Made by a program: the position numbers and the translations under genes
Notes under the pieces: model-generated
The model's database searches: none
What the model was told of the DNA's origin: nothing
What the model saw: only the letters and a program-made list of their open reading frames with translations
NCBI RefSeq assembly: GCF_021044625.1
Contig: NZ_CP087999.1
Span: 1,939,001-2,003,000 of the forward strand
Direction of reading: 5' to 3'
DNA length: 64,000 nucleotides
From: Geomonas sp. RF6
GTDB taxonomy: Bacteria; Desulfobacterota; Desulfuromonadia; Geobacterales; Geobacteraceae
Shown here: one piece after another, positions 26,538 through 32,314 of the stretch
Layout of the letters: the number at the start of each line of letters is the position of its first letter
How positions within the stretch are numbered: the stretch's first letter is position 1

Positions 26538-27491
26538 ATGGCCGAAAAAACCGCACTCCTTATGCTCCAGATGGGGGGACCCGATTCTCTGGCTGCCGTT
26601 GAGCCCTTCCTGGTAAACCTCTTCACCGACCGGGACATCATCAGGCTTGGCCCCTCTTTCCTGCAGCCGTTCATCGCGAGAAGGATCGCGCGTAAGCGGG
26701 CGCCGAAGGTGGAGGAGTACTACCGCCAGATAGGCGGGCGCTCGCCGATCCTGGAGCTCACCGAGGCTCAGGGGCGCGGTGTGCAGGAGCTCCTCGGGGC
26801 AAATGTGGTCCCCTTCGTTGCCATGCGCTACTCGCGCCCCTCGACGCTGGAAGCGCTTGCCGCCATAAAAAGGGAGGGGATCTCCAGAATCGTCGCCCTT
26901 TCCCTCTACCCGCACTACTCCAGGGCCACCACGGGCTCCAGCCTCAACGAGCTGAAGCGCGTGCTGAAGGAAGCGGGGCACCCCTTCCAGCTCCGCTACG
27001 TTGACCGGTTCTACGACCACCCCCTCTACATACGGGCACTGGTGGAAAAGATAGAGGAAGCGCTCGGGAACTTTCCGCAAAGAGGGGAGGTGGAGCTGGT
27101 CTTCTCCGCGCACTCCCTGCCGCAGTCCTTCATCGACCAGGGGGACCCGTACCTCGACCAGATCAAGGAGACGGTGCGCCTCGTGATGGAGCGGGTCTCC
27201 GGGGTGAGCCACCACCTTTCCTTCCAGAGCAAGGCAGGACCGGTGAAATGGCTGGAGCCCTCCACCGAGGAGATGATGCAGACACTGGCAGCCGGCGGGC
27301 GCAAGAACCTGCTGATGGTCCCCCTCTCCTTCGTCTCCGATCACATCGAGACCCTCTACGAGATAGATATCCAGTACGCCGAGGAGGCAAAGGAACTGGG
27401 GATCGAGCGGTTCGTCAGGGCCGAGTCGCTGAACTCCTCTCCCATCTTCATGCAGTGCCTGGCCGATCTGGTGCACGGGGTGTCTCAGTAG
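26538..27491 (+). CDS. hemH: Ferrochelatase
   Basis: Inserts iron into the porphyrin in the last or penultimate step of haem synthesis. 317 aa. Family motifs: [12 protein letters not shown] at the N-terminus, [13 protein letters not shown] (about residues 121-133) and [17 protein letters not shown], with the active-site His in SAHSLP. ATG 26538 follows GAGG. Together with hemE this shows a conventional late haem pathway, relevant to the cytochrome-rich physiology expected of this group. Confidence 0.96.
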
Positions 27492-27576
27492 GGAAGGGGG
27501 CGCCGAATTCCTTTGCGTTTTCGATGCCTTTGCGCTTCAATTGCTCTGTTATGCAGTGAAAAGTCAGGGAGAAAGC

Positions 27577-28389
27577 ATGGAAAAGAGAATTATAGACGGC
27601 ATCGCGGTGACGCTGGCAAACCCGATAGAGCTGCCGCTTCGCTGGGTGGGGGATGACGAGCTCCTGAAGCAGCTCCTGGCGGCGTGGATGGTGATCGACG
27701 AGCGCGACCTTCCCTTCAACCCGCGGCTGATCGGAAAGCCTGGGGTGGGGAAGACGACCCTCGGGTATGCGGCGGCCGAGCGGCTCGGCCGGGATGTCTA
27801 TCTTTTCCAGGCGACGATGGATACCCGCCCGGAGGACCTCATCATCACGCCGGTCATAGGCCCGGACGGCACGATCCAGTATGCGGCGTCCGCGCTCGTC
27901 TCCGCGATGATAACCGGAGGGGTGCTGATCCTCGACGAAGGTAACCGCATGAGCGAGAAGGCGTGGGCCTCGCTGGCGCCGCTCCTGGACGACCGCAGGT
28001 ACGTGGAGTCGATTATCACCGGGCTCCGGATCTCCGCCCATCCCGACTTCCGCATAGTCGTCACCATGAACGAGGACTCCTCCACCTTCGAGGTACCGGA
28101 GTACATCCACTCGCGGCTGCAGCCCCAGATCTTCATCGATTTCCCCGAGGCGGATGAGGAGCTCGCGATACTGAGGGAGAACCTCCCCTTTGCCGACGTC
28201 GCCATACTTCGCTACGTCACCGACTTCCTGCAGAGAGGGCACGCGGCGGACGAGCCGTATTCGGTGCGCGACGGGATCAACATCGCGCGGTTCGCACTGA
28301 AGATGAAGCACGCCGGGAACGACTCGAGGGAGCTTCTGGCGCTCGCGGTGAAAAGTATCCTCGGCGAGGACGCCCTGAGGTATCTGTAG
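27577..28389 (+). CDS. MoxR-type AAA+ ATPase
   Basis: 270 aa. Walker A GKPGVGKTTLGYAAA (about residues 51-65), Walker B GGVLILDEGNRMSEKA (the DEINR-type motif with Gly-Asn-Arg), sensor-1 RIVVTMNED and an arginine-finger region around HSRLQPQIFIDFP. No signal or membrane segment. ATG 27577 has AGGGAGA upstream. MoxR ATPases act as chaperones, typically loading metal or activating a partner encoded nearby, often with a VWA protein. Here the gene is followed 66 bp later by a large unrecognised gene rather than a VWA gene. Confidence 0.9.
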   Translation: MEKRIIDGIAVTLANPIELPLRWVGDDELLKQLLAAWMVIDERDLPFNPRLIGKPGVGKTTLGYAAAERLGRDVYLFQATMDTRPEDLIITPVIGPDGTIQYAASALVSAMITGGVLILDEGNRMSEKAWASLAPLLDDRRYVESIITGLRISAHPDFRIVVTMNEDSSTFEVPEYIHSRLQPQIFIDFPEADEELAILRENLPFADVAILRYVTDFLQRGHAADEPYSVRDGINIARFALKMKHAGNDSRELLALAVKSILGEDALRYL

Positions 28390-28455
28390 CGTTCGTCCCA
28401 CCGTGTGGCACGGCACTGCTGCCGGCTTCATTATAACCCCAGGCCACCTGATCCT

Positions 28456-30405
28456 ATGCCCCAACTCTACCTGGAAAGATTCGGCAACGTCCACGCCCTC
28501 CCGATCCTGCACTACCGGATGGAGTTCGCCCACCTGGTGCGGCAGGCGCTGGACGAGGTGCGCCCCGACTGCATCGCCATCGAGCTTGCCCCGACCCTGC
28601 GGGAGCACTTTCTGCGCGGAGTGCGGCGCCTGCCGGAGCTCTCCGTACTCAGCTACCAGGTGGCGGAGCAGACCGTCTACCTCATCATCGAGCCAGCCGA
28701 TCCCCTCGTGGAGGGTGCCCGGCTCGCCCTCGAGCACGACATCCCGCTGCACCTCATCGATCTCGATCTCGACGACTACCCGAACCACGCCGACTCCGTC
28801 CCCGATTCCTATTCCGTCCAGCGTATAGGGCTCGCTCCCTTCTACGAGGAATATGCCGCGCGCTTCTCCGCTGTCGAGCCGGAAACGGTCGACCTGCGTC
28901 GCGAGCAGGGGATGGCGTACCGTCTGCAGCAGCTCGCCGATCAGCACGAGCGGGTCCTCTTCATCTGCGGCATGCACCACCTGGCCCGGGTGCGCGCCTT
29001 CTTCGCGGAGCCGCAGGCCCAGCCGCTGACCAGGAGCAGGCGGGAAGGGGTTACCGTGCTGAACCTGCATCCGGAGACGTGCCACGAGGTGCTCGCGGAA
29101 CATCCATTCCTCTCCGCCCTCTATGAGCTGCGCCGCTCTCCGCTCCCTCCGCTGATGCCGACGCCGAGGCTCAGCATGCGCAAGAGCTTCAACGCCTTCG
29201 AGCTCATCGAGGGGGGAAAAAGGGAGATACCGGAGGAGGCGGTGCTGCGCGAAGCCGTTGACCGCAGCGCCCGACTGGTGGGGGAGGAAGGAGAGATGCC
29301 GGACCGTCAACGGATTCTCCTGCGCCTCTTCCAGGAGGCGGCCCGGCACTATCGCCAGGAGACCGGCGACACCGTCGCCCACTGGCAGAGGCGGGCCTTC
29401 TTCCGTTTCAGCCGCAATTGCGCACTCCTTTCCGGCATGCTCCTTCCGGACCTCTTCCAGATGCTGACCTCGGCCCGCTCCTGCGTGGACGACAATTTCG
29501 CCTATGCCTTTTTCCGGCTGGCGAAGTTTTATCCGTGGCAGCGCGAGACGAGCGAGATACCGACGGTGCGACTCACCGCGGCGGATCTCTGGTCCGGCAC
29601 CCGCCGTATGCGCTTCCGCCCGAAGGAACCGCGCCGGGTGAAGGGACGCTCGGCGCTGAAGTCGCTGGGTAGGAAGAGGGAGAAGCAGCCGGGGTCGTGG
29701 CTGCAGGGGTTCGATGATCCCTCCATCTGCTCCTATCCTCCCGAGGACATCACCATCGAAGAGTATGGTCGTAATCTGAAGAAACTCGGGGCGCGGCAGC
29801 TGAGCGAGGAGCACTCCCGGACGGAGCCGTTCACCGTCTCCCTTCTGGACGGGATCGACATGCGGGAGACGCTGAGGAATTTCCACGAGGGGCGCATCTA
29901 CGTGAGGGAGAACCGACGTGTGCAGAGTGGCGTCGGGTGCGTGGTGGTAATCTTCGACGAAGACCGCGGGGGGACCCGCTTCCCTTACTGCATCACCTGG
30001 CTTGGCGAGCACGACCAGGAATCGGACATGGCCTTCTATGCGACGTCGCCGGTGGACAACGTGGTGGGGCCCGGGATTTCCCGCTGCGAGTATGGGGGGT
30101 TCCTCCTGAGCTACCCGCCGCGGCGCATGTTCGACGTGTGGAGTGACAGTGACTACGACAGCGCGTTAACGAAGGCGGAGCTTCTCCTCATGGCGGCTCT
30201 GGACTATTCGGAGGAGCGCGACGTGGTGTACGCCGCGCCGACCCCGCCCCGCGGATTCATGAAACAGCTTGCCTCGAAACTGGGGAAGCGCATCATCTAC
30301 CTGCCCCTCGCGAGCCTCTCCCCGGTGGGGCTCAAAAAGCTCCGCGTCTTCCATGTCCTCTTCGGTCGCGACAAGCGCGATATCGCGAAGGACTATATCT
30401 GGTAG
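28456..30405 (+). CDS. Large unrecognised protein paired with the MoxR ATPase (TraB/ChaN-like N-terminus, tentative)
   Basis: 649 aa from ATG 28456. The N-terminal 200 residues resemble the TraB/ChaN/Tiki superfamily: FGNVHALPILHYRMEF, then VRPDCIAIELAPTLREHFL, and VLFICGMHHLARVRAFF. This resemblance is by eye only. The middle contains a basic linker (RPKEPRRVKGRSALKSLGRK). The C-terminal 200 residues (GISRCEYGGFLLSYPPRRMF, AAPTPPRGFMKQLASKLGKR) match nothing I know. No signal peptide or transmembrane helix. The only ribosome-binding site is weak, so coupling to the upstream ATPase is plausible. Strand, spacing and order suggest the ATPase acts on this protein. Confidence 0.75.
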   Translation: MPQLYLERFGNVHALPILHYRMEFAHLVRQALDEVRPDCIAIELAPTLREHFLRGVRRLPELSVLSYQVAEQTVYLIIEPADPLVEGARLALEHDIPLHLIDLDLDDYPNHADSVPDSYSVQRIGLAPFYEEYAARFSAVEPETVDLRREQGMAYRLQQLADQHERVLFICGMHHLARVRAFFAEPQAQPLTRSRREGVTVLNLHPETCHEVLAEHPFLSALYELRRSPLPPLMPTPRLSMRKSFNAFELIEGGKREIPEEAVLREAVDRSARLVGEEGEMPDRQRILLRLFQEAARHYRQETGDTVAHWQRRAFFRFSRNCALLSGMLLPDLFQMLTSARSCVDDNFAYAFFRLAKFYPWQRETSEIPTVRLTAADLWSGTRRMRFRPKEPRRVKGRSALKSLGRKREKQPGSWLQGFDDPSICSYPPEDITIEEYGRNLKKLGARQLSEEHSRTEPFTVSLLDGIDMRETLRNFHEGRIYVRENRRVQSGVGCVVVIFDEDRGGTRFPYCITWLGEHDQESDMAFYATSPVDNVVGPGISRCEYGGFLLSYPPRRMFDVWSDSDYDSALTKAELLLMAALDYSEERDVVYAAPTPPRGFMKQLASKLGKRIIYLPLASLSPVGLKKLRVFHVLFGRDKRDIAKDYIW

Positions 30406-30468
30406 TTTCTCCGCCCCCGTACCCCTTCAGATAACACTCACTCCGGAAATCCCGGGCAAGCTGGCGGG

Positions 30469-30586
30469 TGGCGCCGCGCTGGAGCGTAGGCATCCTGCCT
30501 GCGATGGCGGCGCAGCCGCCACAGAACGCGCGGCTGGCGCCGCGGCTACAGGCTGGGAAGCCTGTGCTCCAGCGCAACCCGGATAG
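30469..30586. repeat. Intergenic repeat with CTGGAGCG ends and nested palindromes
   Basis: The unit begins CGCCGCGCTGGAGCGTAGGC, continues ATCCTGCCTGCGATGGCGGC and ends GTGCTCCAGCG, so the ends are inverted. A second, shorter copy in the opposite orientation is at 57593-57655. Confidence 0.7.
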
Positions 30587-30620
30587 CTTTTCTGATCCAC
30601 ATTTAGCCATTAGAAAATAT

Positions 30621-30647
30621 TAAAGTTAAAACTTCTCCGGTCGATTA
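30621..30647 (+). promoter_or_regulatory. Sigma28 (FliA)-like promoter for the 114-residue orphan
   Basis: TAAAGTTA (30621-30628), 11 bp, then GTCGATTA (30640-30647): 7 of 8 and 6 of 8 matches to TAAAGTTT-N11-GCCGATAA. The next start codon with a good ribosome-binding site is 30 bp downstream. Confidence 0.6.
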
Positions 30648-30676
30648 TTTGAAGGATCTCAATACCGGAGGGGTTT

Positions 30677-31021
30677 ATGAACACGAGCACGAGCTGGTAT
30701 AAGGACATGCCGGAAGGGATGGAACTGGACGACCAGGTAATCGAGAGGGTGCTGCAAAGCACCGGTGCGGTCATGGAGGTGTGGGTTGTGAAAAATAAGC
30801 GCCAGTACGAGGCGGCACTCTTCTTCGACAGACGGTACCGTCCTGGGCCGCCGGTGCCACGCCCTCTGGAAGAGCCATCGGGAGACTCGACTCATTGGAT
30901 GGGGGCGCGCCCGAAGGTCGGCCTCACGGCCGAGGAGGCGGAAAAAATTCTCCACGAGGTGACGTGTGCCAATGCACTCCACAAGATCCAGATGAAGGAT
31001 ACATGGGGCGTCGCGTCGTAG
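30677..31021 (+). CDS. Conserved-looking small protein, unknown function
   Basis: 114 aa, soluble, no signal peptide. ATG 30677 follows GGAGGGG by four bases. The N-terminal part predicts a mixed alpha/beta fold (IERVLQSTGAVMEVWVVKN; EAALFFDRRY), the middle is Pro-rich (RPGPPVPRPLEEP) and the C-terminal helix is LTAEEAEKILHEVTCANAL. I recognise no family. A sigma28-like promoter directly upstream hints at expression with flagellar late genes. Confidence 0.7.
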   Translation: MNTSTSWYKDMPEGMELDDQVIERVLQSTGAVMEVWVVKNKRQYEAALFFDRRYRPGPPVPRPLEEPSGDSTHWMGARPKVGLTAEEAEKILHEVTCANALHKIQMKDTWGVAS

Positions 31022-31124: not shown

Positions 31125-31147
31125 ATTTGCATCACAGGGAGAACGTT

Positions 31148-32314
31148 ATGGCAGCTGTCAAACGAATGATCTTTGGCACCATCGCGCTGGTTGCCCTCTC
31201 CGGTATTTCCTACGGCGCCTGTGGGGGGAGCAGCATGAAGGACGGTAGCGGAGCTGGCGGCACCACCTCCGGCACGACCAGCGGGCAAAGCAGCATGCAG
31301 AGCGGCAGCGGTGCGGGCGGCAGCACGTCCGGCGCGAGCAGCGACTTCAACCAGCAACAGCAGAGCGACATGCAGAGTGGTAGCGGTGCCGGTGGCAGCA
31401 CATCCGGCAGCAGCGACTTAAACCAGCAGCAGAACCTGCAGAGCGGCAGCGGTGCAGGTGGGAGCACGTCCGGCACAAGCAGTGACTTAAACCAGGAACA
31501 GCAGAACAACCTGCAGGGTGGCAGCGGCGCCGGCGGCAGCACGACCGGCGACTACAACCAGCAACAGCAGCAGAACCTGCAGAGCGGCAGTGGCGCGGGT
31601 GGCAGCACCTCAGGCGCAGCCAGCGGTCAGGAAGGCTTCCAGAGCGGTAGCGCGGCCGGTGGCGGCACCGGCGGCGGTTTTGGTGCAGGTGGAGGTACCG
31701 GCATGGGAAGCAGCGCCCCGCTCGGCGCCACCCTTTACGAGTACGGCCCATTTTACGGTGCCCCCGGCGGTGCTGTCGGTACTACTCCCGGCACCGGCGG
31801 CACTACCGGCACCGGTGGCACAGGAGCTGGCGGCTCCACAACGAGTCCGAGCACAGGGACCGGGACAGGCGGGAGCATGTATAACGCACCCAGCGGCGGA
31901 TCGACTGCGCCGAGCTATGGCACAGGTGGCAGCACCACCACCCCGAGCGATACCGGTACAGGCACCGGTACGGGAACCGGCGGCAGCACGACCATGCCTA
32001 GCGATACTGGCACCGGCACGGGGACCGGTACAGGCACCGGCACCGGCGGGAGCACCACCATGCCGAGCGATACCGGAACCGGCACTGGCACCGACACCGG
32101 TTCAGGGACCGGTGGCAGCACTTTGGTGCCGAGTGATCAAGGCACCGGTTCCGGGACGGGTGGGGTAACATCTCCGTCTGAACCCGCGACTCCGCCGAGT
32201 GATACCGGCGACATGGGATCCGGCGCAGGTGGTTCGACCGGCGACACGGGGTCTGGAGCAGGTGGTGCTACGGACACCGGGACTACAGGAGGCGGTGCTA
32301 CCACAGGGCAGTGA
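31148..32314 (+). CDS. Secreted Gly/Ser/Thr-rich repeat protein
   Basis: 388 aa. A signal peptide ([19 protein letters not shown], ending ISYGA) precedes a low-complexity body. The first half has about seven copies of a [10 protein letters not shown] unit separated by Gln/Asn-rich linkers such as [10 protein letters not shown]. The second half has [15 protein letters not shown] units with (Thr-Gly) runs, and the end returns to [16 protein letters not shown]. No charged or aromatic core, no anchor and no catalytic motif. It is likely extracellular or periplasmic and intrinsically disordered; a matrix or surface role is speculation. ATG 31148 follows AGGGAGA. A terminator follows at once. Confidence 0.85.

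Follow-up and report, generated by a model that had tools for sequence, protein, structure and literature searches.

In the 64,000-nucleotide (nt) stretch of Geomonas sp. RF6 DNA analysed here (the window), a gene for a 270-amino-acid (aa) MoxR-type AAA+ ATPase is followed on the plus strand, after an intergenic gap of 66 nt, by a gene for a 649-aa protein, and the pairing of these two genes is real and spans deep divergence. The large partner has no Pfam VWA match, its N-terminal domain is predicted to adopt a TIKI/TraB/Ere/ChaN-type fold, and its C-terminal half is, in our alignments, the best conserved part of the protein. On balance, we lean towards a reading in which the two proteins form one machine, an ATPase ring working on, or by way of, a bifunctional partner in VWA's place. 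MoxR ATPases are described as operating together with VWA proteins, and an enzyme-like substitute in a widespread pair would test whether VWA is essential or one adaptor among several. The pair further offers a two-gene entry to the little-studied YehM/DUF5682 proteins, as well as a strongly conserved C-terminal domain outside known families; its parts are of known kinds except for this C-terminal half, which is without a family in the libraries used. The genome comprises 5.26 Mb in one contig, and its close relatives include Geobacteraceae such as Geomonas. The features of the pair, in window positions, are as follows.

27577..28389, plus strand: MoxR-type AAA+ ATPase (AAA_5), 270 aa, ATG start (Pfam, PDB profile search, conserved residues)
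27733..27756, plus strand: Walker A motif GKPGVGKT, ATPase residues 53-60 (sequence; conserved in the aligned ATPases)
28456..30405, plus strand: large partner protein, 649 aa, ATG start (open reading frame (ORF); start in line with relatives)
28456..29139, plus strand: N-domain, large-protein residues 1-228, predicted TIKI/TraB/Ere/ChaN-type fold (AlphaFold2 (AF2), VIA-align, BFVD, DUF5682 matches)
28510..28512, plus strand: His19, putative TIKI-type catalytic residue (conservation, analogy)
28582-28584, plus strand: Glu43, putative TIKI-type site (conservation, analogy)
28900-28902, plus strand: Arg149, putative TIKI-type site (conservation, analogy)
28978-28980, plus strand: His175, putative TIKI-type site (conservation, analogy)
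29227..30402, plus strand: C-terminal half, residues 258-649, family and fold unrecognised (AF2, Foldseek, VIA-align, conservation)
29596..29727, plus strand: basic low-confidence segment, residues 381-424 (model confidence, composition)
29728..29748, plus strand: CSYPPED motif, residues 425-431, near-invariant (131-sequence alignment)
30004..30030, plus strand: GEH-x-x-ESDM motif, residues 517-525, near-invariant (131-sequence alignment)

Distribution and gene order of the pair

Among 395 genomes of the phylum, both genes were found in 64, the large protein alone in 3, the ATPase alone in 1 and neither in 327. Thus, 64 of the 68 genomes having either gene carry both (Fisher p 5.7e-69, a plain count that ignores kinship), and the co-occurrence in other genomes on which the first-pass annotation had staked its proposed module is borne out, also by a plasmid from Chlamydiota (pS13 of Neochlamydia sp. 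S13) that carries the pair with its genes 5 nt apart. Each of the three genomes with the large protein and no ATPase (G323, G410 and G441) holds a partial match, and the single genome with the reverse situation (G404) a distant one; altogether, large-protein matches, a few of them partial, occur in 67 of the 395 genomes. The pair lies on one contig in 57 of the 64 genomes, invariably on the same strand and with the ATPase upstream (57 of 57), and 54 of these 57 pairs are within 1 kb, so that adjacency elsewhere, for which the same annotation proposed a check, holds as a rule, though not always (the exceptions are weighed below).

A closer set of 58 relatives, in which the ATPase was called at E <= 1e-40, gave both genes in 49, neither in 6, the large protein alone in 2 (G003, with a 24-residue fragment, and G004) and the ATPase alone in 1 (G018). 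The six joint absences are spread over two families within the order to which the window belongs, which argues against kinship alone as the explanation of the co-occurrence. Within the window's own family, a large-protein match is present in 34 of 35 genomes (one being the 24-residue fragment), with one per genome save in G004. The solitary ATPase frame of G018 (G018:C37:14082-14894) contains a stop and has no large-protein gene in a genome that is 78% complete; it is perhaps a decaying pair.

Genome contigs hold at least 549 encoding stretches (two patterns may fall in one gene), of which the best 80, biased toward the window's close kin, were named as loci. Both genes are contained in 71 of these 80, always on one strand, and the gap between them is at most 5 nt in 38 and at most 300 nt in 64 of the 71, with one 4-nt overlap. 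Six loci (L057, L058, L059, L060, L061 and L062) have about 1.6-7 kb of other genes between the pair, its order and strand being kept; by eye, the intervening genes are signalling-like, SNF2-like, toxin-antitoxin-like and shikimate-pathway-like, and they look mutually unrelated, save that L057 and L059 share some.

The ATPase

The MoxR-type assignment made in the first-pass annotation is supported by a Pfam AAA_5 match of the window protein well above the cut-off (E 4.9e-19; 69.2 bits against 22) and by a PDB profile search with a 19-sequence profile, in which midasin (5.4e-40), NorQ (6.1e-14) and CbbQ (1e-10) are the nearest solved relatives. G53, G58, K59, D120, E121, N165, R180 and R231 are invariant in all 19 aligned sequences, the window's included; among them are the Walker A and B, sensor and arginine residues of an intact ATP site. 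The AAA modules of midasin (Rea1) are the best solved match, whereas the ATPase of the pair is a single 270-aa module with a separate partner. The nearest bacterial solved ATPases belong to NorQ-NorD and CbbQ-CbbO (the CGN MoxR subfamily), and the partner in our pair, unlike theirs, is not a VWA protein. Weak matches to NCBIfam GvpN were obtained for 17 of the 19 ATPases (best E 1.3e-10), and the window protein scores far below that family's cut-off (35.3 bits against 266.8). Membership in the YehL subfamily was considered and rejected: in a single comparison, YehL and the ATPase are 25% identical across 124 aa (E 0.008), and the family profile leads to midasin, NorQ and CbbQ. A helix-2 insert is given as a mark of the MoxR clade (PMC7159879).

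The N-terminal domain of the partner

Searches of Pfam, NCBIfam, PADLOC, PHROGs and PDB sequences returned nothing credible for the large protein of the window; a profile search against the last of these reached a best E of only 0.23, and the score against DUF5682 (PF18934) is 13.1 bits, below the cut-off of 26. Across 27 members of the family, DUF5682 is matched by 18 at E <= 1 (best 5.4e-10), NCBIfam traB by 2 (best E 5.2e-5) and TraB_PrgY_gumN, weakly, by 3 (best E 0.062). No VWA family appears among the Pfam matches of these 27 members at E <= 1, and hhalign against YehP gave a probability of 0.7%; a disguised VWA protein was thus rejected, in agreement with the first-pass annotation, which had singled out the partner as something other than VWA.

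A DUF5682 search of 198 phylum genomes returned five matches above the cut-off, all five in genes of the large-protein family, and in 14 control genomes matches were obtained in E. coli and Deinobacterium chartae. We infer that the E. coli match is YehM, to which the large-protein family aligns by hhalign with a probability of 80% (E 1.3e-5, columns 15-187); alignments with the DUF5682 model and with YehM are limited to the N-terminal parts and never cover the whole length.

A full-length AF2 model, built on a 50-sequence alignment (49 of 82 related loci plus the window), has a mean predicted local distance difference test score (pLDDT) of 76, with N-domain blocks (residues 1-228) at 73-98, mostly at least 85. 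Foldseek found no match for the N-domain in the PDB at E <= 0.001. With VIA-align, the top rows were Tetrahymena complex IV chains (Z 10.6), followed by ChaN (Z 7.7; 146 residues aligned, 4.3 A), HopBA1 (Z 7.5; 156, 5.1 A), EreC (Z 6.4) and RRSP (6.1 for 6a7h, and 5.4, over the same residue range); these values are in the middling range according to the tool's own note, and unrelated folds start at Z 5.4, so that EreC and RRSP are nearly tied with them. The top BFVD match belongs to the TraB family (E 1.2e-4, prob 1.00, TMt 0.44).

One superfamily, TIKI, is taken to comprise ChaN, HopBA1, RRSP and a member of the Ere family, and H19, E43, R149 and H175 of the large protein resemble in order and spacing the residues required in RRSP (PMC6254334). 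We assigned these four by order, spacing and analogy to the 2His/2Glu/Arg set described there, with one Glu assigned rather than two. Their conservation was followed in 131 sequences, which remained when duplicates were dropped from 168 large-protein sequences that end in a stop codon and are 560 aa or longer, shorter fragments being excluded: H19 is kept in 124, E43 in 126, R149 in 129 and H175 in 126, and all four jointly in 124. Because four superfamily members come up together, alongside the BFVD TraB match, the profile matches and the conserved H19/E43/R149/H175 set, the N-domain is predicted to have, over about residues 1-188, a TIKI/TraB/Ere/ChaN-type fold. The TraB/ChaN-like N-terminus proposed in the first-pass annotation is thereby supported, and the domain would be a putative esterase/amidase-like hydrolase.

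The C-terminal half and its constancy

Modelled alone, the C-terminal half (residues 258-649) reached a pLDDT of 74 and a predicted template modelling score (pTM) of 0.53. Foldseek against the PDB gave nothing at E <= 0.001, the best VIA-align Z of 4.5 is not above background, and the PDB profile search likewise yielded no convincing match, so that this half stays as unrecognised as it had first appeared. Several RNase H-like chains scored Z 3.0-3.7, within the chance range; we give little weight to these recurrent rows or to the short-Argonaute ones (Z < 4 or Foldseek E > 0.08), because in our reading the arrangement of acidic residues agrees just partially.

The C-terminal half is nevertheless the best conserved part of the large protein as judged from the 131 sequences: mean pairwise identity is 0.645 for residues 425-649 and 0.507 for the N-domain, and residues 425-649 exceed residues 11-228 in identity in 98.5% of the sequence pairs (which are not independent). 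In the CSYPPED motif, D431 is kept in all 131 sequences, C425, S426 and E430 in 130, P428 in 129 and P429 in 121; in GEH-x-x-ESDM, G517 is kept in 131, E518, E522, S523, D524 and M525 in 130 and H519 in 129, the sole sequence without this motif being L087. That sequence is also the exception at seventeen chosen polar, glycine and tryptophan positions, identical in 130 of 131 (C425, S426, E430, D431, G466, R474, G517, E518, E522, S523, D524, G540, G547, G548, W562, E575 and H633). The segment just before these motifs (residues 381-424) averages 32% Lys+Arg (range 19-44%) and holds a partly conserved R..E.rpGeW stretch, and the pLDDT of the full-length model falls below 50 at 381-383 and 386-425.

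Five sequences (L082, L083, L084, L086 and L171) have lost at least one of the four TIKI residues while their C-half positions are intact, and the ATPase is retained in their genomes or loci; two more (L143 and L157) have an incomplete set, their start being cut short. Because L082-L084 share one genus label, the five would represent about three separate losses. The C-terminal half thus looks like the constant part, but in the main family only and not among its more distant kin. L082, L083 and L084 (genomes G154, G084 and G395) belong to a small-genome lineage that has lost TIKI residues but retains the C-terminal half and the ATPase, so that nature has here separated the two halves. L171 (368-4583) comes from an IMG/VR contig; its pair, in which the TIKI site is degenerate, neighbours an ORF that resembles an integrase as well as genes that look phage-like by eye, and the region is probably host DNA flanking a prophage.

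Neighbouring genes

When the neighbouring genes of 35 loci were clustered, the pair's own genes came first (25 and 24 loci), followed by hemH (11, all in the window's order), and no third gene recurs widely beside the pair in loci with usable gene calls; genes were called with a program trained on GC-rich ones, which gave at most 3 genes in 9 of the 35 loci. VWA genes are present elsewhere in many pair-bearing genomes, with VWA_2 (PF13519) in 11 and VWA_CoxE (PF05762) in 9 of 16. Neither of these two families occurs in the pair's operon in the 16 genomes, the search being confined to them, and three single-contig genomes with the pair (G040, G154 and G359) have neither. The sole close case is a VWA_2 gene in G014 (G014:C1:934225-934593), 2.2 kb from the pair and on the opposite strand. 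In the window's genome, the CoxE match and the six VWA_2 matches adjoin a different pair of AAA_5 genes, located around 3.91 and 0.44 Mb.

A proposed two-component machine and its alternatives

In the reading that we lean towards, both genes would encode one two-component machine. The ATPase would form a hexameric ring like that of NorQ and, driven by ATP, remodel its complex with the large protein, which would occupy the place of the VWA co-chaperone. For NorQ-NorD, the proposal is that NorD, the VWA partner, inserts into the pore of the ring and grips the target (PMC9976466). Since the partner of our pair differs from a VWA protein, it would have to bring its own means of engaging the ring: the C-terminal half, with the flexible basic segment 381-424, might dock on or into the ring and bear the main function, and the N-domain would act as a TIKI-type esterase/amidase-like hydrolase held or exposed by the ring. 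This reading draws on the conserved pairing and gene order, which extend to the Chlamydiota plasmid and to a divergent pair in G185, on the invariant ATP-site residues, on the lack of a recurring third gene in loci with usable gene calls, on the predicted TIKI-type fold with its conserved residues, and on the strong conservation of the C-terminal half. The hexamer, the physical complex, the docking, the hydrolase activity and the target are all inferred, and the docking is a guess, because confidence in the model of the C-terminal half is low to middling.

Several observations weigh against this reading, that model confidence among them. Three of the 57 same-contig pairs are more than 1 kb apart, the genes are on different contigs in 7 of 64 genomes, and 7 of the 71 named loci have a gap of more than 900 nt; G004 has a large-protein gene without an ATPase match at the threshold used, and G018 the opposite. 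In the divergent pair of G185 (L087, 5118-8304), the ATPase is 35-38% identical and is followed by a relative of about 770 aa that aligns with the family profile across 568 columns (probability 99.7). This relative retains all four TIKI residues but is devoid of the C-half motifs, which speaks against the C-terminal half as the essential part everywhere. Hydrolysis, for its part, cannot be required everywhere, given that five sequences have a damaged TIKI set.

A bolder version of this proposal can be entertained tentatively. It would make the pair a VWA-independent MoxR machine, in which a midasin/NorQ-like ring drives a dedicated bifunctional enzyme that combines a TIKI-type hydrolase with a C-terminal domain of a new enzymatic fold, the C-terminal domain is essential in the main family, and the basic segment serves as the VWA 'finger' in the pore.

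Known systems resemble the pair in part. In the E. coli yehL-yehM-yehP-yehQ cluster (MoxR ATPase, uncharacterised, VWA and SWIM, respectively), the ATPase gene likewise directly precedes a gene related to the N-terminal part of our protein, whereas no VWA or SWIM gene was seen adjacent to the pair and the C-terminal half cannot be aligned with YehM. With the TIKI/TraB/Ere/ChaN superfamily, the window protein shares a predicted fold and the His/Glu/Arg/His set; it differs in adding a large C-terminal half and in being tied to an AAA+ ATPase. The open-access literature searched makes no mention of DUF5682, YehM is absent from titles and abstracts among the matches listed there, and no MoxR-type pair without VWA was found in these open-access papers.

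It is doubtful, though worth weighing, that the large protein is purely a co-chaperone or adaptor that replaces VWA and presents to the ring an unlinked third client, such as a metalloenzyme. In its favour, published accounts have MoxR rings activate a separate target via a partner (PMC3893208, PMC9976466), and the TIKI set is damaged in five sequences. Against this, no third gene recurs nearby, although a client may be unlinked, and the near-invariant polar residues of the C-terminal half suggest, in our view, an active site rather than a surface for binding. The chaperone-client arrangement suggested in the first-pass annotation is one of two possible readings, the other being this co-chaperone role.

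We consider it unlikely that the pair serves in conflict or phage defence, the TIKI domain being the effector. MoxR-based conflict systems exist: the MoxR-vWA ternary systems (PMC7159879) likewise combine a MoxR ATPase with a further large component, and the patchy distribution of the pair (67 of 395 genomes) and its presence on a plasmid would suit such a role. However, the pair's operon is without a VWA_2 or VWA_CoxE gene in the 16 genomes, none of the 27 large-protein members matches a PADLOC defence model at E <= 0.01, and the ATPase gives just a weak TRIP13 match (E 0.0048). Moreover, a large-protein match is present in nearly all genomes of the window's family, the C-terminal half is nearly invariant, and 50,697 phage records yielded no match.

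Very unlikely, in our estimate, is a haem or metal insertion chaperone tied to hemH, in line with the special haem/metal link that had been suggested from the position of the pair just after that gene. The ORF directly upstream of the ATPase gene (26538-27491) is one that we, like the first-pass annotation, take to be hemH. We examined 114 loci (some genomes twice), excluded 11 without an ATPase match, and scored hemH when it lay no more than 1.5 kb away on the ATPase strand: it is upstream in 29 of the 103 ATPase-bearing loci, absent from 58 whose upstream DNA extends for 2.5 kb or more, and could not be scored in 16 with too little DNA. ChaN, which is among the structural matches, was solved with haem, and NorQD inserts iron (PMC9976466). 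The 58 loci without hemH speak against the link, which is not borne out; no locus outside the window's order has hemH beside the pair (some flanks being short), and the adjacency is a lineage feature of part of that order.

Finally, accidental neighbourhood can practically be dismissed: the pair is split by other genes or contigs in some genomes, but joint presence and absence and a fixed order recur across many family labels and in another phylum.

Other features of the locus

A promoter and terminator scan of 27300-30900 gave signals no better than those of shuffled sequence, and an Rfam scan of the window returned a single tRNA and nothing else. Downstream of the pair, a 395-aa ORF on the plus strand (31127-32314) consists mostly of Gly/Ser/Thr repeats.

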